From a virus, in the IMG/VR virus record IMGVR_UViG_3300005534_000049, positions 1 through 22,145 of that record: a stretch of DNA of 22,145 nt; one strand, 5' to 3'. The notes under the pieces were generated by a model, which was given only the letters and a program-made list of their open reading frames with translations, searched no databases and was not told the origin of the DNA. Positions within the stretch are counted from its first letter, which is position 1, and every line of letters starts with the position of its first letter. Position numbers and translations under genes: made by a program. Below, one piece after another: positions 3,346 to 21,698 of the stretch.

Positions 3346-4287
3346 TCAGGAACTGCCGGGGAGCCGGCGCTTGATGTACTCAGGCCCCGCGCCTGGCCGG
3401 CTTCCGAGCAGCAGCTCGATCACGGCTTGCGTAATCCGGATGCTGGCCGTCGACGGCAGAATGTTCGCCTCGATCACGCCCTGCGTCGCCCGCACGTTCG
3501 CGGTGGAGGGCAGGATGTTGGCTTCGATGACGCCCTGAGTCACGCGGGCTTTCGGGCTTCCGGGGTTGGGATAGGTCGGGGACGTCATCGGAGGAATGTC
3601 GATCGTCACCTCGTCGATTTCGGCCGAGTTCAGCGCGCCGCCGGCTTCCCAGCGCACCCAGTTGCAATCGCTCGCGATCGTGCCGCCGTGAGTTCCCAAA
3701 GTGGCACCGACCACCTGGTCCGTTGCGAGCGAGCCCGAGAGAATCAGCTCGCCGTCGGCGTACACACTGAACCCGATCGTGACGAAGTTGATGCCGCCGA
3801 TGACGGATGCGCCGAGCGAGACATCCACCTCGAAAAAGATTCCGAAGCGCTGATCGGCGCGCTGCTGCAGTACGCCGCCATCCCCAGGAGCGTGCAAGCC
3901 GGTGTTGTCAATCAAACCCGTCCCGAAGCTGCCGCGGGTGCCCGACGCATAGATCGAGAAGCTGTAATCGGATTCCTGCTGGAGCCAGCCGAAGATCACG
4001 AAGGCGTTTTGGTCGACCGCGTCCCACTGACCGAAGGCGACCATGCGGCCGCAGGCAATCGAGGCCGTGTGCTTCCAGGAAAACCACGCATTCACCGCGG
4101 GGATCGGCGCCGAGAAACCGTCGAACAGAATCGAGCCTTCGCGCATCTGCCAGGCGTTGCCGGCGTTTCCGTTGATGCCCAGATGGACGCCAGGCGTGAC
4201 GACGGATCCGCTGCCTCCGACGATGAAGCCGGGCACCGAGGTCGCCCCGACAGTCAGGGCGTCGAAATTCTGGTAGACGATGGCCAT
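3346..4287 (-). CDS. Tail protein with C-terminal 18-residue repeats (313 aa)
   Basis: The first 240 residues are beta-rich, with a lectin-like pattern (YQNFDALTVGATSVPGF, WFSWKHTASIACGRMVAFGQWD, FGIFFEVDVSLGASVIGGINFVTIGFSVYADGELILSGS, INSAEIDEVTIDIPPM-type end), and may be a distant relative of the preceding protein. The C-terminus (about 246-299) has three 18-residue repeats, KARVTQGVIEANILPSTA, NVRATQGVIEANILPSTA and SIRITQAVIELLLGSRPG, of a kind (R-x-TQ-x-VIE-L) seen at the ends of phage tail proteins. A basic tail (PEYIKRRLPGSS) follows. Its ATG overlaps the previous stop. The repeated motif copy A begins right after its own TGA. Confidence 0.75.
   Translation of the reverse strand: MAIVYQNFDALTVGATSVPGFIVGGSGSVVTPGVHLGINGNAGNAWQMREGSILFDGFSAPIPAVNAWFSWKHTASIACGRMVAFGQWDAVDQNAFVIFGWLQQESDYSFSIYASGTRGSFGTGLIDNTGLHAPGDGGVLQQRADQRFGIFFEVDVSLGASVIGGINFVTIGFSVYADGELILSGSLATDQVVGATLGTHGGTIASDCNWVRWEAGGALNSAEIDEVTIDIPPMTSPTYPNPGSPKARVTQGVIEANILPSTANVRATQGVIEANILPSTASIRITQAVIELLLGSRPGAGPEYIKRRLPGSS
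3391..3552 (-). repeat. Three 54-base tandem repeats coding 18-residue units
   Basis: The units lie at 3499-3552, 3445-3498 and 3391-3444 on the minus strand. The first two encode nearly identical peptides (TQGVIEANILPSTA in each), while the third has diverged. Recent duplication or selection to keep the repeats in register is likely. Confidence 0.8.
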
Positions 4288-5417: not shown

Positions 5418-6974
5418 TCAGGTCTGAAGCACCACGCGCAAATTAGACCCCTCGATCGTCGCGCCCACCTGGACGACGACGGCCTGGATGTAGCCGTCCG
5501 GCGAGAACGGCTGGAGGTCGGTCCAGGTGAAGCCCATCGTCGGCAGCAGATTTCCGTTGGCGTCGAGTGCTGTGGTGCACAGCGGCAGCATGTTGGGCGG
5601 CCACTGGATCGCCTTGTTCGAAAACGTGAGGAACGGCATCTGCCGGCCATCGGGCGCATTCGCCGCCGAGAAGCTCGCGAAGTTGCCGGCGTCGATCACC
5701 AGGATGTCGATCAGCCGCACCACATTTGCGAGGCTCACCCAGCACAGGTACACCACAATTGCGGCGTTGGCGTCGACGGTTCCGTTCGGCCCGGTGTAGG
5801 ACGTCGCGCCCGTCGGCGCCGTGTCGACCTTGGCGTAAGCCGTGCGGATCGTTTCCCAGGCCTGCGACGCGTCGGCCTTGTTGGTCTGGCCGCCAGGGAC
5901 GAGCGACCCCGAGATGTTGAGCGAAATGTAGGCGGCGCCGCTCATCGTCCGGAGGCCAGGCGCAGGCGGGGTCGATCGCGTCGCGTTGATAGGCGGCGCC
6001 AGGTTCTGCAGCAGCGAGACGCCGGCGCCGTTGATCGAGAGCGCCGCGACGGCCATGTTATCCCAGAGAAACTTCAGCAGCTGCGGGCCCGCGGAGACGT
6101 CCAGGTTCGCGAGAAATTCTTTGTTGATGAGCCGGTAGAAGTTCTGCGCTGTGTGCGCGTTGAGCTTCGAGCCGTACTGGGCAAAGCCCGACGCGCCGCC
6201 GCTCGCGTGCCTTGCAAGAGTCACGGAAAAGTGCGTGTCGTCGGTGGGCACAATCTTGGTGATCTGGTCGATTTCGTAGCTGTAGGCGCCGCTTACGATC
6301 GTCGGATCGTTCCAGACGACGAAGTCCCCGACTGCCCACTGCCGGCCGAGGGTCGCCGCGGCGCCCGTTCCCGTGCCGCCGGTGACGGTCAGAGGGGCGC
6401 GCAGGTTGTAGCCCTGGACGGTGAGAGTAAAGCCGGTGACCACGCCGGCGGTGACGACCGCGGTCCCCTTCGCCGGCCGCCCTTGCCCGTTCGAGCTCGA
6501 GATCGTGAGCGTGTCGCCGTTGGTGTAGGCGGATCCCCCCGTAACTTGTACGCCGAAGCGTGACAGGCCGGTGAGGGTCGCGTTGAAGGTGATGGGATCC
6601 GTGTGATTGTCGGTGGTGCCGGTGGCGTACCAGGCGACGTCGGTCTCGTCAATCGAGGGCGCCAGGATCGTGAGCTGGTTCGATGCGCCAGGCGATTGAG
6701 ACAGAAAGCGCTTCAGCAGCCAGAACCACTGAATCCACGGCTTTGAAAAACGCGTGGCTTGCGCGTTCTTGAGCAACGTCACTATGTCGGGCGGCGGCTG
6801 CTGCGGATCCCCGAGCTGCTGGGCATCCAGGATCGGCTGCGGGATCGGTGGATCGATGAGCTGAACGGTCGGTCCGCCGGAGGCCTGCGGCGTGAGCGAC
6901 TGCAGCGCCTCGATCGTGAGCGTCGCGTAGCCTTCCGGCCGGATCTGAAAGATCAGCTGCGGCGTGGTGCTCAT
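5418..6974 (-). CDS. Virion-associated protein of unknown family (518 aa)
   Basis: No enzyme motif or leader is visible. The N-terminal 60 residues are Pro/Gln-rich (IDPPIPQPILDAQQLGDPQQPPP), followed by KPWIQWFWLLKRFLSQSPG. Residues about 135-210 form a Gly/Thr beta stretch (VQVTGGSAYTNGDTLTISSSNG, GVVTGFTLTVQGYNL, LTVTGGTGTGAAATLG) similar to small repeat domains in phage tail proteins. The middle (AHTAQNFYRLINKEFLANLDV) is helical, and the end is beta (TFSNKAIQWPPNMLPL, DLQPFSPDGYIQAVVVQVGATIEGSNLRVVLQ). It sits between the gp10-like protein and the lectin-like tail proteins, so a tail-associated structural role is likely. Its start overlaps the preceding stop. Confidence 0.72.
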   Translation of the reverse strand: MSTTPQLIFQIRPEGYATLTIEALQSLTPQASGGPTVQLIDPPIPQPILDAQQLGDPQQPPPDIVTLLKNAQATRFSKPWIQWFWLLKRFLSQSPGASNQLTILAPSIDETDVAWYATGTTDNHTDPITFNATLTGLSRFGVQVTGGSAYTNGDTLTISSSNGQGRPAKGTAVVTAGVVTGFTLTVQGYNLRAPLTVTGGTGTGAAATLGRQWAVGDFVVWNDPTIVSGAYSYEIDQITKIVPTDDTHFSVTLARHASGGASGFAQYGSKLNAHTAQNFYRLINKEFLANLDVSAGPQLLKFLWDNMAVAALSINGAGVSLLQNLAPPINATRSTPPAPGLRTMSGAAYISLNISGSLVPGGQTNKADASQAWETIRTAYAKVDTAPTGATSYTGPNGTVDANAAIVVYLCWVSLANVVRLIDILVIDAGNFASFSAANAPDGRQMPFLTFSNKAIQWPPNMLPLCTTALDANGNLLPTMGFTWTDLQPFSPDGYIQAVVVQVGATIEGSNLRVVLQT

Positions 6975-7177
6975 CGCGGCCAGTCTCCCGAGCGTTCGAC
7001 GTCACGCCAGCGCCGCGAAAGCTCGCGGGCGAGCTTCACGTCGAAGATTCCGCGACGTTCCTGCTCGGCAAATTGGTTGTAGACGCGCGCGAAGGCGTTC
7101 ATCAGGTCTGCCAGCTGGTCGACGTCGGCGGCCGCGGCGGATCCGCCCAGCGCGAGCAGAAACATGCGCCGGAGCAT
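6971..7177 (-). CDS. Small protein with leader-like N-terminus (68 aa)
   Basis: The N-terminus (MLRRMFLLALGGSAAAADV) resembles a short Sec leader with possible cleavage in A-A-A-A. The rest is a soluble helical stretch (QLADLMNAFARVYNQFAEQERRGIFDVKLARELSRRWRDVERSG) with alternating hydrophobic and charged residues. Its start touches the gp10-like stop (TAAATG), and its stop overlaps the next start (ATGA), so it belongs to the same run of genes. It might be a small chaperone-like or tail-associated protein. The leader is weaker than in the larger secreted-type genes. The function is unknown. Confidence 0.65.
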   Translation of the reverse strand: MLRRMFLLALGGSAAAADVDQLADLMNAFARVYNQFAEQERRGIFDVKLARELSRRWRDVERSGDWPR

Positions 7178-16499: not shown

Positions 16500-17750
16500 T
16501 TAAGCTCCCGCCACGCGGCACGCGTGCTCGCGATACAGCGGTGAAATTCCCCAGTAGACGTCGAAGCGACACTTCCAGATGTCGGTGTCGGTGTCGAAGT
16601 CACGAATGAAGCGCAGATAAATCCCGGTCTCGGGATCCCGCTCCTGGTACGCCATGTCGGTTCCGCCGGGGACCTTTCCAGGCACCGAAACGACGGTGTA
16701 GGCGGTCTCGTGGAAGCACAGGTACTGCGTCGAGGCGGTCGAGGCAAGCGACTGGAAGTTAATCGAGGCGCCGTTCGCACCGACCTGGTTGACGTTCTGA
16801 TACTGGCCGCTCGGCGTGATCGCCGGCGAGATGGTCAGCGTCAGATTGCCCGCTCCGTCGGCGGTGCCGTCGGCTTCGACCACGAACTGCTGGGCTACCG
16901 GAGTCGACTGGTAGTTGCCGGCGTTCGTCATCGTGACGAGGGTCGCGCCAGATCCGATGGTGAAGACGTCGCCCTGCTTCACGGTGGTGGCCGCGGTGAA
17001 GCCGTTGAGGATCAGCTGCATCGTGCCGTTGTTTCCGCCGGTGCCGGTCTGATTGGCTCCGTTGATCACAGGAGTTCCGGCCTGGGCGCCCGCAGTGAGC
17101 GAGGCCAGGTTTTCCGTCTCGTACCAGTCCATGCCGCCGGTGTCTTTGCCGATGCGGTTCCGCTGGAACATCTTCGAGATGGTCGCCTGCGGATTGAACT
17201 GCCCCTTCAAGGCGTCGACGACTTCAGTCGACGCGTCGGAGTTGATGACCATGCAGCGGCCTTCCTTCGGCGCCAGATTCTGCTTCAGCTTCTTCGCCGC
17301 GAGCAGGTACTGCTTGAAGGCGGTCGTTCCCGTGGGCGTGGTGCCGTAGGTGCCGACCAGGTTCCAGGTCCGCTGCGCCATGTACTGCGCTGCCGCGAAA
17401 TCGAGCTTGTTGGCGAGGCGCTCGGCCGCGGGCTTGATATAGTTCTCGTCCCAGTCCTCGATGGACATGTAGTCTTCCATCGTGTCGGCCTGGAAGTGGA
17501 CGCCCGACTGCTGCGTGACGCTCACGGGCGTGACCAGATTGTCGAGGGGTTCCGGTTGAAACAGCGCGCCGTCGACGCCGACGAAACGCTGCGGTTTTTT
17601 CACTTCGACCGTGCGGCCGACTTTCGCGCCAGGCTGCCCGAATTCCTTGCTGTACCCGTCGTACAGGTTCGGCCAGATCTCGAGCATGTTGGAAAGCCGC
17701 GCCAGACCCCGGTAGAGGATCTTTTGCGTTGAGAGTAAATTGTTGGGCAT
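16500..17750 (-). CDS. Major coat protein, P22 gp5-like (HK97 fold)
   Basis: This protein forms the icosahedral shell. Its 416 residues are close to the 430 of P22 gp5. The N-terminal arm (LSTQKILYRGLARLSNMLEIWPNLYDGY) and KVGRTVEVKKPQRFVGVDGA match the P22-coat pattern. The helix at 104-125 (YIKPAAERLANKLDFAAAQY) is the spine-like helix of the family. The block around 245-270 contains VKQGDVFTIGSG, a recurrent motif in P22-type coats, and the region around 270-320 would correspond to the inserted extra domain of gp5. The C-terminus (ERDPETGIYLRFIRDFDTDTD, then KCRFDVYWGISPLYREHACRV) is the usual conserved end. It lies 42 bases after the scaffold gene. Its ribosome site and start codon lie within a hairpin. 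Confidence 0.93.
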   Translation of the reverse strand: MPNNLLSTQKILYRGLARLSNMLEIWPNLYDGYSKEFGQPGAKVGRTVEVKKPQRFVGVDGALFQPEPLDNLVTPVSVTQQSGVHFQADTMEDYMSIEDWDENYIKPAAERLANKLDFAAAQYMAQRTWNLVGTYGTTPTGTTAFKQYLLAAKKLKQNLAPKEGRCMVINSDASTEVVDALKGQFNPQATISKMFQRNRIGKDTGGMDWYETENLASLTAGAQAGTPVINGANQTGTGGNNGTMQLILNGFTAATTVKQGDVFTIGSGATLVTMTNAGNYQSTPVAQQFVVEADGTADGAGNLTLTISPAITPSGQYQNVNQVGANGASINFQSLASTASTQYLCFHETAYTVVSVPGKVPGGTDMAYQERDPETGIYLRFIRDFDTDTDIWKCRFDVYWGISPLYREHACRVAGA

Positions 17751-17792: not shown

Positions 17793-18806
17793 TTACGCTG
17801 CGTGCTTCGGGTCGAAGGATTTCTTCTTCCAGGCTGTATAGCCGGCAGATTCATCGATCACCGGAGGGTTGCCTCCACCGCGTAAATTCGTCCCCGCTGG
17901 CGGGGCTGAACTTTTTTTCGGTGCAGCAGGCGTCTGTCGAGCTTGCGCGAGCTCTGCTTCGAGCTCAGCGATGCGGGATTCGTACTTAAACTTGTAGAGC
18001 GCGTCGAACCGCAGAATCGGCGTTTTCTGGCCGTCGATCTCCTTCAGCTTGTCCGGCTCTTTCATAAGCCGGTGGAGCATCGCCGGGCCTTCCTCACCTT
18101 GGCATCCCCACAGCAGGAACGCCTGGGTTTCGGGAGAGATTTTCGTCTCCTTGAACTTGGCGACCAGGTCGGGATAATCATCGTGCTCGGCCGCGTACTC
18201 GCTGCTGCGCGTCTCGAAGTCGGTCACGGCGGCCTTATAGCCGCGCTGTGCTTCCTCGCGAGAGCGCGCCTGAGCTTCCTCGGCGGCCTTCTGCGTTTTT
18301 CTGTGTTCGAGCTTGCGAAACTCTTTGCGTCCGATCCAGCCGGCGCGGGCATCCAGCCACTGCTGGTAGTCCGTGAATTGGTCTTGTGTGGGCTCGGGAT
18401 CGCTCGGGTCGGTTCCGTCGAAGGGTTTCGGGGCAGCGCCTTCCGGCGCAGATTCTTTGGGCGACGGGCTTCCGCCTTTGAGTTTTCGCAGACGCTCCTC
18501 TTCCGCATCCGCTTCGCGCTTGGCGGCTTCCCTGCGGGCGACCTGTTGATCGATATCCCGCTGGATCTGCTGCTTGCGCTTCTCAACTTTGTCCTGCTTC
18601 AAAGACGGGTCCGAACCGTCGCCAGGTTGTGCCGCAGCCGGATCGCCGGCGGGCGCGGAAGGGTCAGAGCCCTGCGGATCGTTTACTCCGTGAGCATTGG
18701 GCTGGACATCGGCAGCGGCCGACGCGGGTTTGTCGAATCCGGTTTTGAAATCGGCATACGTCTCAGTCTTTGGTGCTTGCGGTTCAGCGACAGCGGGTTC
18801 AGGCAT
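17793..18806 (-). CDS. Capsid scaffolding protein
   Basis: Scaffolding proteins guide coat assembly into a procapsid and then leave or are degraded. This 337-residue protein (P22 gp8 is 303) is highly charged and has the expected layout. A disordered Pro/Ala/Asp-rich N-terminus (1-68) is followed by a long Lys/Arg/Glu helix (about 70-110), a second disordered linker, then a helical block (about 158-205). A segment (AFLLWGCQGEEGPAMLHRLM, about 229-248) resembles the segment before the final helices in many phage scaffolds. A C-terminal coiled coil (ALYKFKYESRIAELEAELAQ) and a basic tail (YTAWKKKSFDPKH) follow, the latter a plausible coat-binding end. It sits directly before the coat gene, the usual order. 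GGAGG lies about 15 bases upstream of the ATG. Confidence 0.85.
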   Translation of the reverse strand: MPEPAVAEPQAPKTETYADFKTGFDKPASAAADVQPNAHGVNDPQGSDPSAPAGDPAAAQPGDGSDPSLKQDKVEKRKQQIQRDIDQQVARREAAKREADAEEERLRKLKGGSPSPKESAPEGAAPKPFDGTDPSDPEPTQDQFTDYQQWLDARAGWIGRKEFRKLEHRKTQKAAEEAQARSREEAQRGYKAAVTDFETRSSEYAAEHDDYPDLVAKFKETKISPETQAFLLWGCQGEEGPAMLHRLMKEPDKLKEIDGQKTPILRFDALYKFKYESRIAELEAELAQARQTPAAPKKSSAPPAGTNLRGGGNPPVIDESAGYTAWKKKSFDPKHAA

Positions 18807-18997: not shown

Positions 18998-19366
18998 TTA
19001 GGCTGCGATTCCGATGTCGATCATGCCGACATGCGTGCGGCGTGTTGGATCCCATTCCTGCCGATAGCGAGCTTCGGGGAACGGAGCCAGGGCTGCGTGA
19101 AGGTTGCGATCCATCACCTCGGATTCAAACTCGTCCGATGGTCCGAGGCGGAAGTAAGTCGCGTAGCCATCCAGAAGCGCGCGATCGATCTGCGCCGCGA
19201 GCTTCTCCACGGCCGGCTGGATGTAGAGCCGCTGAAATTCCGCAAAGGTCTCGATCTCGAACTGCACCCCGAACTGGTGGAGTGTTCGGACGGCTGGAGT
19301 CGCGATCGCGGCGCCGGCGATCGCGCCGCCGAGGATCCCGAGAAAGCCGCGCCGGTTCACACGCAT
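18998..19366 (-). CDS. Twin-arginine-leader protein with capsid-like helix (122 aa)
   Basis: Residues 4-25 (NRRGFLGILGG followed by AIAGAAIATP) form a typical twin-arginine (Tat) signal: an RR motif, then a weakly hydrophobic Gly/Ala-rich core. The mature part begins with VRTLHQFGVQFEIETFAEF. Residues 48-65 (YIQPAVEKLAAQIDRALL) resemble residues 104-120 of the coat protein encoded two genes downstream (YIKPAAERLANKLDFAA). The rest (PSDEFESEVMDRNLHAALAPFP) is not recognised. The ATG at 19366 has no clear ribosome site, and a GTG two codons in is an alternative that would still keep the RR motif. It lies between the portal and scaffold genes. It could be a truncated and re-targeted relative of a capsid protein, or an unrelated small phage protein. 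Confidence 0.7.
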   Translation of the reverse strand: MRVNRRGFLGILGGAIAGAAIATPAVRTLHQFGVQFEIETFAEFQRLYIQPAVEKLAAQIDRALLDGYATYFRLGPSDEFESEVMDRNLHAALAPFPEARYRQEWDPTRRTHVGMIDIGIAA

Positions 19367-19377
19367 ATTATGCCCGA

Positions 19378-19629
19378 CTACTCGGCCTTGTTCATGTGCT
19401 CGAGCCGTGAAATCCGCTCGTCGGCGTCCTGGGCGGCCTCGATCAGGTGGAGGATGATCGTCTGGACCCGCTCGAACGCATCGCGCGCGCCGGCGTCGAT
19501 CGCGTCCTGGCCCTGCTTGAGCTCGGCGACCTGGTGCTCGAGCTGGGCGATGCGCTCGACGTCTTTCTTGTCGCGAGCCGGCGCGAAAGCGACCAGCGCG
19601 AGTAGGGCGAGAGGAATCAGGCGTTTCAT
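19378..19629 (-). CDS. Small coiled-coil protein with N-terminal hydrophobic leader (83 aa)
   Basis: The first 18 residues (MKRLIPLALLALVAFAPA) form a basic start plus a hydrophobic core, as in a Sec signal peptide or a membrane anchor. The rest is one long charged helix with heptad-like hydrophobic spacing (VERIAQLEHQVAELKQGQDAI, then VQTIILHLIEAAQDADERISRLEHM). There is no lipobox Cys. The start overlaps the portal stop (ATGA), so translation is probably coupled. The shape, an inner-membrane anchor with a periplasmic coiled coil, resembles a small inner-membrane spanin. However, there is no partner lipoprotein, holin or endolysin nearby, so I do not call it one. It could also be an exported virion-associated or superinfection-related protein. 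The gene is real; the function is unknown. Confidence 0.72.
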   Translation of the reverse strand: MKRLIPLALLALVAFAPARDKKDVERIAQLEHQVAELKQGQDAIDAGARDAFERVQTIILHLIEAAQDADERISRLEHMNKAE

Positions 19630-21698
19630 TGCTGAGGTGCTCCCTGGTCGCCGGCTGCCGGCGCCATCGGCGGCGGCGCCACGGCCGCCTGGTGGTCGAT
19701 GAGGGCGTGTTCGTGATCCATCTGGCCCATGTGCTCGGCCGCGTCCATCAGCTCGGAGAGGAGCATCTTGACCATGTCGCGCTTATGCGCCAGGACGTCG
19801 GAATGCGCCGCAGTCTGCGTTTCGAGCGCGGCCTTCATCAGCGTGCCGTGCTGCTTGATCTGCTCGACCTGGACGCGGCCCTGCGACTCGATCTGCTTCG
19901 TTTTGATGACCAGCATCGCCTGCTGAAGTTGCTGCTGCAGCTGCTGCAGCTGCTGCTGCATCTGGGCCATCTGCGCCTGGACCTGGGGCGGAACGCTCGC
20001 ACCCTTGTCGTCCTCGATCAGGCCTGGCGTCTTCATCGCGATGAACCGCTTCATCCGGTCGGCCGCGATGTCGGCGCCGGCGACGTCCTTGTGCGCGAAA
20101 TACTGATCGCCGAAAACCATCATCAGCTCGGGCGCCGCCTTGACCGTCGCTTCCCAGAAGGCGTCTTCTTCTTCGCGCTCGGTGTCGTAGCTCGGCCCGA
20201 TCTTGACCACCACGGAATACTTCCCGACGCCCAGCTGGTGGTGATAGGTCTTGCCGGTCTCTTCGTCTGTGTGCGGCTGCTCGGTGTTCACGCGCACGAT
20301 CTTCTCGGCCAGATCCTCGCCGAGGATCACGATTTCGCGCTCGGTGTCGTAGTACCACGGGATCCACTCGAGCAGGCAGTGACACATGGAGCGAATCGCC
20401 CGCGACAGGTTGTCGGTGTAGTGGTAGGTGGCGAGGTCGCCTTCACTTCGAAGCTGCGCGATCGCGCGGCCGCTTTGGCCCGCGTACTGCTGCTTTCCGA
20501 GCGACGGATCGTGCAGGCCGATCACGTCGCGCATTTCGTTGGCGGTCTGCGCCTTAGCCTGGGAGATGGCCGCGATCGGCGGCTCGGCCCAGTCGCGGAA
20601 GGGCTTGCCGCCCTGAATGAGCGGATCCGGATTGAATAGGACGTAGTTGCGGTTCGTCGTGTTCATCTGCTTCCACTCTTTTTCGTGGCCCTGGATCATC
20701 GCCGGCGTCGCGAGATACGGGTTTTTGCTGTTCATCGCCAGCGTTTCGGCTTCGTTGGTCGATTCCCAGTTGTAGAGAACGTTCAGGTCGCGCGAGTCGC
20801 GGATCAGCGAGCCGATGTTGCGCTTGCCGTCGACCCACATTTCATCGCCGTAGACCGGGAACAGCGGCACGCGCGTGCCAGGCAGCAGCGTGGGCGGCTC
20901 GAGCTCCTCGACGCCATTGATGATGTGCTTGACGAGCTCTTTGCCCTTTTCCTTGCGCTTGCGCGCCGGTTTGGCGTCCTCGCCTTCGAGATCGGCGCCG
21001 AGCGCGACGTTCGAGCTGCCGGCCTCTTCGATGCAGAAGTACTCCGCGACGAGAACGTGAGCGCCATCGCCGCGCGGATCCATCCACTCGGTTTCGCCGC
21101 TTGCGAAGTTCTGGCCGGTCGCCTCCGCGTTGGGCCACCGCTCCATGAATTCGATCCGGCTCATCGGGACGAGCTTCATCGCCCAGCGCGAATCGCTCCG
21201 GTCGGGCTTCATCGCGTGGTTATCGAAAAACACGGTGTCCGGATCGTAGACCGGTTCGATTTTGAGATCGTGCTCGCCGGTTTCCTCGTCGACCAGCTCG
21301 GCGACGAGCTGGAACACGCCGTAGCTCGATCCGATCGCGTATTTCGCGGCCTCGGTGAAAGCGATCTGCGAGTCGGAGTCGTACTGGATCGCGCGGATCA
21401 GGCCTTCATAGACTTCCGCGGTTTCCTTGGTCCCGTCGCGCCGCGGTGAGACGCGCGCCTGCGGGTTGTTCTGGCGGATGTCGTTTACGACCTGGTTGCG
21501 GAAGGCGCCGAGCCGGTTGATGGTCAGCGCGGCTTTGCCGCCGGCGATGCGCTCGTTTCTGACCTTCTCGTCCCACTGCTTGCCGATCAGGAAGCGTTTG
21601 TCGATCGCCGCTTCGTCGCGGATCTCCTGTTCGGCCGCGCGCGCAGATGCCAGGCGCGCCCGAGCGGTTGCGACGAGCTTGTCGACGTCGTAGGGCAT
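19626..21698 (-). CDS. Portal protein, P22 gp1-like
   Basis: This is the dodecameric ring at the capsid vertex through which DNA is packaged and ejected. At 690 residues it is close to P22 gp1 (725). The N-terminal part has the family pattern: a charged helix (about 1-40), FLIGKQWDEKVR, then LTINRLGAFRNQVVNDIRQNNPQ (about 58-80), followed by the stem and wing region with KIEPVYDPDTVFFDNHA (about 146-162). The YGDEMWVDGKRNIGSLIRDSRDLN segment (about 283-306) and the ANEMRD/GQSGRAIAQLRSEG segment (about 390-420) match the clip and crown-side core of P22-type portals. The C-terminal 120 residues are a long Gln/Met-rich helix, consistent with the barrel extension of P22 gp1. The start is ATG, with a GAGAGGG stretch upstream. 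The stop overlaps the next start (ATGA). Confidence 0.93.
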   Translation of the reverse strand: MPYDVDKLVATARARLASARAAEQEIRDEAAIDKRFLIGKQWDEKVRNERIAGGKAALTINRLGAFRNQVVNDIRQNNPQARVSPRRDGTKETAEVYEGLIRAIQYDSDSQIAFTEAAKYAIGSSYGVFQLVAELVDEETGEHDLKIEPVYDPDTVFFDNHAMKPDRSDSRWAMKLVPMSRIEFMERWPNAEATGQNFASGETEWMDPRGDGAHVLVAEYFCIEEAGSSNVALGADLEGEDAKPARKRKEKGKELVKHIINGVEELEPPTLLPGTRVPLFPVYGDEMWVDGKRNIGSLIRDSRDLNVLYNWESTNEAETLAMNSKNPYLATPAMIQGHEKEWKQMNTTNRNYVLFNPDPLIQGGKPFRDWAEPPIAAISQAKAQTANEMRDVIGLHDPSLGKQQYAGQSGRAIAQLRSEGDLATYHYTDNLSRAIRSMCHCLLEWIPWYYDTEREIVILGEDLAEKIVRVNTEQPHTDEETGKTYHHQLGVGKYSVVVKIGPSYDTEREEEDAFWEATVKAAPELMMVFGDQYFAHKDVAGADIAADRMKRFIAMKTPGLIEDDKGASVPPQVQAQMAQMQQQLQQLQQQLQQAMLVIKTKQIESQGRVQVEQIKQHGTLMKAALETQTAAHSDVLAHKRDMVKMLLSELMDAAEHMGQMDHEHALIDHQAAVAPPPMAPAAGDQGAPQQ
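19921..19971 (-). repeat. Low-complexity CAG/CTG tract inside the portal gene
   Basis: The plus strand shows repeated gctgctgcag/ctgctgcagctg units, which encode a run of Gln with Leu and Met (QMQQQLQQLQQQLQQ, about residues 577-592) in the portal C-terminal helix. Triplet runs like this can change length by replication slippage. The leucines are spaced as in a coiled coil, which argues that the run is structural and fits a barrel extension. Confidence 0.7.

Follow-up and report, generated by a model that had tools for sequence, protein, structure and literature searches.

The window, a 22,145-base IMG/VR virus record, carries a P22-like head gene block on the minus strand. Followed in the direction of transcription, the block comprises a P22-like portal protein (19626..21698; PF16510, 3e-135), an 83-aa protein with a signal-like N terminus and a coiled coil (19378..19629), the start of which overlaps the portal stop, and a 122-aa protein (18998..19366) in which sequence, pairwise and profile matches reveal a leader and a segment resembling the coat spine helix. 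These are followed by the scaffolding protein (17793..18806; phrog_8865, 1.6e-19) and the P22-like coat protein (16500..17750; PF11651, 8e-32; phrog_283, 1e-67). The P22 assignment of the coat is safe, because its predicted structure aligns to those of the Sf6 and P22 coats at Z 21-23; in this model the spine helix occupies residues 101-125, after a strand at 87-95. The 122-aa gene starts 11 bases past the 83-aa gene, in a tight order with portal and scaffold. It does not touch the portal gene, from which its start codon is separated by 260 nt and by the 83-aa gene. The original prediction had the coat encoded just downstream of the 122-aa gene, which is incorrect, as the scaffold gene intervenes. 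A 42-kb contig (L001/L005) is identical to the window across 7.8 kb, with zero differences in the overlap. Elsewhere in the window, at 3346-4287, a tail-fibre-like protein has a short motif (VTQGVIEANILPSTA) three times in its C-terminal part.

The 122-aa open reading frame (minus strand) begins with ATG and ends with TAA. Its GC content by codon position is 0.70/0.45/0.74 (0.70/0.68/0.46 for the overlapping antisense frame), which fits a coding gene. Residues 1-27 (MRVNRRGFLGILGGAIAGAAIATPAVR; 19286..19366, minus strand) form a twin-arginine-like leader, in which a twin-arginine motif is joined to an apolar stretch (NRRGFLGILGGAIAGAAIATPAV). The pattern, RRGFLG and then an apolar run, agrees with the Tat leader proposed originally, but the score against the curated TAT_signal family (PF10518) is 12.7 bits and so falls below the cut-off of 22.7 bits. 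Judged from its sequence, the protein is probably targeted to the membrane.

The coat-like segment covers residues 31-74 (19145..19276, minus strand), of which 31-68 are matched by coat profiles and 41-74 are predicted to form a long helix. Within it, YIQPAVEKLAAQIDRALL (residues 48-65) and YIKPAAERLANKLDFAA (coat residues 104-120) are identical at 9 of 18 positions, and the likeness continues upstream of the helix (TP-V...Q-GV-F...T), for example GVQFEIET against GVHFQADT. The claim that a leader-bearing protein contains a coat-like segment proved to be real by several measures. The mature part scores 62 against the window's own coat in a Smith-Waterman alignment, while shuffled versions score 28.6 +/- 4.3 (0 of 5000 as high), the portal 42, and the remaining proteins of the window 35 or less. 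A BLASTP comparison with the same coat gives E 6e-6 over 49 residues, and when the protein is compared with all open reading frames of about 110 loci nearly all top matches are coats, at the place of the spine. One of its two weak PHROG matches is phrog_283 (major head protein; E 0.37), and the alignment pairs its residues 43-68 with positions 101-126, at the homologous location.

The profile search against coat families that had been called for yields a match to the P22 coat family, located at the spine helix. With hhalign and a coat profile built without the window's own coat and that of its nearest relative, residues 31-68 align at P 7e-6 (probability 84%). A profile from 20 phages, which omits the window's own coat and that of a close relative, ranks the 122-aa protein top among about 6,800 non-coat sequences (E 0.03), and a spine-only profile from 72 coats finds it at 2e-5, where, full coats aside, a single sequence scores better, namely one of the short coat-like proteins described below (here termed mini-coats). 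Its mean score against 112 coats is 39.3 (shuffles 21.2 +/- 1.3), and the window's own coat is the joint best match among them. Since the likeness holds for the profile without the own coat and across the 112 coats, it is not tied to that coat, and the segment is coat-like in a family-wide sense. There is no match to PF11651 itself in the 122-aa protein, which at this size is not a complete coat and has no A and I domains; the conserved spine-helix motif of that family is present in the profile tests. The middle of the 122-aa protein is thus a coat-family spine-helix segment.

A single-sequence model, predicted without an alignment and of low confidence (pLDDT 64.5), has helices at 41-74 and 78-93 and a beta-hairpin at 99-106/111-118. 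The expectation of a spine helix in the predicted structure holds in part: the common stretch falls on a long helix in both this model and that of the coat, but searches of fold libraries with the whole model gave no convincing match. The best candidate, a tail protein (VIA-align Z 5.7), was within noise and was rejected. The hairpin lies in the C-terminal part (residues 96-122; 19001..19081, minus strand) and is a possible counterpart of the C-terminal hairpin of the coat. Its sequence (ARYRQEWDPTRRTHVGMIDIG) resembles the last hairpin of coats, such as VRIVVSWDPVRSVRVNRMDSLGG of L012, and in an alignment with the mini-coats it falls under their C-terminal hairpin, the sequence alignment setting EARYRQEWDP...MIDIG beneath AARVVKTYDV...RFDVSY. 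Scored apart from the helix, the hairpin likeness is not significant (best 39, P 0.08; profile score about zero), and the correspondence is suggestive only.

The viral contigs, 50,697 phage records and 398 bacterial genomes searched yielded no homologue of the 122-aa protein; four matches in the bacterial genomes (E 0.002-0.009) are the count expected by chance and were discarded. A DNA pattern search for the leader plus PA...LA..ID returned two matches, both out of frame, and among twin-arginine-like open reading frames near related portals none was like the 122-aa protein. Genome scans with portal alignments recovered one contig of a Methylobacter MAG; contigs could not usefully be scanned with portal and coat alignments made from seven distant sequences, which were too diverse. 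In the nearest other phage (L003/L006), with a coat 86% and a portal 72% identical, the 122-aa gene and the 83-aa gene are missing together, and the scaffold follows directly after the portal. The 122-aa gene is accessory or fast-evolving.

Neighbourhoods of related portals were scanned with profiles of the N-arm, spine and C-terminal blocks of the coat. Matches to coat pieces with E below 1 occur in 12 of 515 portal-adjacent open reading frames (11 of 514 without the window's own, counted as adjacent as its open frame extends upstream) and in 2 of 6992 elsewhere (Fisher p 8e-13, a value that overstates independence, as L083, L085 and L087 are related, as are L073 and L074, leaving at least five unlike cases). 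The main examples are plus-strand frames in L073 (5157-5705), L074 (5210-5926), L085 (5550-5912), L132 (5348-5836) and L050 (5093-5461), from which coat residues ~125-350 are apparently missing. In the best of these the A and I domains (~125-350) are gone, and the spine helix and C-terminal hairpin are left. The 137-aa protein of L073 combines the N-arm (SNTLITASIIAK), the spine and the C-terminal hairpin; those of L074 and L132 keep the spine and the hairpin; in L085 the hairpin region is clear, and among isolate phages the protein best matches major capsid proteins of Streptomyces phages, at their C terminus (E 1e-4); and L050 has a 114-aa protein at the 3' end of the portal with a weak spine match. 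A profile of these five matches full coats in two pieces, ~10-125 and ~350-400, with the middle absent, and the same two-piece match is repeated on the coat of the Methylobacter MAG contig when the profile includes the 122-aa protein. The 122-aa protein itself is matched by the five-member profile in the spine part only (E 0.3-0.8).

Smaller proteins of ~50-60 aa lie just upstream of the portal, on plus-strand frames at L083 5679, L087 5721, L076 5645, L058 5661, L064 2770, L070 5736 and L077 4066. Mostly they start with MDG and have a helix and a coat-like C-terminal hairpin, strong in L083 and L087 and weak in the others; in L083, L087 and L076 the hairpin closes proteins of ~58 aa. L004 (293-607) encodes a 101-aa protein, overlapping the portal start, in which a hydrophobic stretch is accompanied by a copy of the L004 coat N-arm (LWRTLARWHHNLDLLRSIDH; the piece LWRTLARWHHNL against LWKTLARWKNNL in the coat). 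Only the N-arm is copied, and the piece scores 91 with its own coat against 42 for the next best, whereas the mini-coats of L073 and L074 are most like each other; the origins of these proteins thus differ. Also in L004, a frame downstream of the coat (5831-6247) ends in a second copy of the coat C terminus (GLYPEWSAVIAS); the 3' end of the coat gene seems to have been duplicated locally. In L020 (MW202674), at 5501-7016, a P22-like coat gene is annotated as two pieces with a small open reading frame between, which an intron, a frameshift or a sequencing error could explain. Arginine-rich frames of L062 that scored against their own coat were rejected as artefacts of composition and reading frame, since reversed-coat controls scored equally high. 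The mini-coats of L073, L074, L085, L132 and L050 touch the portal or sit within 163 nt of it, and none of the mini-coats outside the window has a twin-arginine leader. Two of these short proteins are known in PHROGs only as weak matches to the major head protein, and no description of mini-coats was found in the literature searched, which left out most subscription journals.

Coat ancestry of the segment in the 122-aa protein is, in our assessment, likely. An unlikely alternative is an exported or membrane-anchored phage protein of ordinary kind, with an amphipathic helix that came to resemble the conserved coat helix by chance or convergence. The significant match spans just ~26-38 helix residues, shuffling destroys helical periodicity, and the lack of a fold match also suits this explanation; yet the match reaches upstream of the helix, the phage's own coat shares the best score among the coats compared, and among thousands of real and spurious open reading frames better scores are found only in truncated coats and portal-adjacent mini-coats. 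The original suggestion of a piece of a capsid gene is supported by the spine-helix profile match and by the helix in both models, and is strengthened by the other cut-down coats beside portals.

Such a piece could be a mere remnant, that is, a non-functional duplicate of the coat gene to which a leader became fused after an internal deletion. The absence of the gene from the closest relative, despite the similarity of their coats, is in keeping with this, as is the fact that coat pieces have arisen more than once, the N-arm copy and the duplicated coat 3' end of L004 being examples. But the reading frame is intact, has coding composition and is tightly spaced in a dense gene order, it has stayed open although about half of the positions in the common segment have diverged, and placement at the portal recurs elsewhere, all of which make decay still less probable than a chance likeness. 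Sensing of a major capsid protein by the host is cytoplasmic, whereas a Tat substrate would exit the cytoplasm, and a location among head genes suits assembly better; these points count against a decoy, an exported or membrane-bound coat mimic that would occupy a coat-recognising host factor or act against superinfection. Although the combination of a leader with a coat-like surface would be apt for such a mimic, and there is a precedent for hosts that sense a major capsid protein (PMC9712102), we regard it as quite improbable.

Returning to coat ancestry, the C-terminal hairpin of the 122-aa protein probably represents the C-terminal P-domain hairpin of the coat, which would make the protein a coat cut down to its P-domain core, with no A or I domains. 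Whether the entire protein has this mini-coat architecture we judge to be an even question; if so, it is probably a divergent, leader-bearing mini-coat. Taken as a whole, the best explanation, to which we give slightly less than even weight, is that a P22-like head block encodes a small protein derived from the coat, similar to its P-domain and fitted with an export or membrane leader. The evidence for the wider mini-coat pattern is stronger than that for the window's protein.

The likeliest role of the 122-aa protein lies in head assembly, at the portal or the membrane, and we infer it tentatively. The P-domain, made up of the spine helix and the C-terminal strands, contacts neighbouring subunits in HK97-type shells (phi12, Ccm; PMC8569155). 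The 122-aa protein may act in procapsid assembly through a surface like that of the coat, presented to subunits of the coat, scaffold or portal. Without an A domain, a P-domain protein could join the growing shell edge but would be unable to complete a capsomer, so that it might start, cap, position, limit or adapt the shell around the portal. The leader would hold the protein at the membrane, and because the 83-aa neighbour too starts with a signal-like stretch, the pair might form a membrane module; this step is weakened by the sub-threshold Pfam score of the leader and by the leaderless state of the other mini-coats. How a single portal is incorporated, at one vertex of the phage shell, is a long-standing question. 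Mini-coats, having core coat surfaces and genes against the portal, are direct candidates for starting or limiting shell growth. We further speculate, and think it rather doubtful, that portal-coupled mini-coats (P-domain cores or single coat pieces), made recurrently by P22-like phages, are head-assembly factors of a class not yet described, with the 122-aa protein a membrane-targeted member linking shell initiation to the membrane. If this were true, the HK97 fold would have been pared down to the P-domain on more than one occasion, and for a use other than the shell lattice.

Among known systems, the P22-like coat (PF11651, phrog_283; gp5 of P22 and Sf6) shares with the 122-aa protein the spine-helix segment at a homologous position and possibly the C-terminal hairpin, but it has ~416 rather than 122 residues, and in the smaller protein the A and I domains are absent and a leader replaces the N-arm. 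In T4 the portal initiator is located at the inner membrane and depends on gp40, and the vertex protein gp24 probably derives from the major capsid protein through duplication (PMC9958956). Like the 122-aa protein, gp24 is a second, coat-derived head protein, but it has an HK97 fold and forms pentamers, whereas the 122-aa protein has at most the P-domain core, with a leader. The capsid protein homologue Ccm of SaPIbov5, which redirects assembly (PMC8569155), is similar in being a coat homologue that could affect coat assembly; it differs in its full HK97-like fold and in being satellite-encoded, and for the 122-aa protein we infer the role. The mini-coats of L073, L074, L085, L132 and L050 resemble the 122-aa protein in being short, in lying near the portal in the head block and in missing the middle of the coat, and in the first four, unlike the 122-aa protein and L050, the C-terminal piece is clear.
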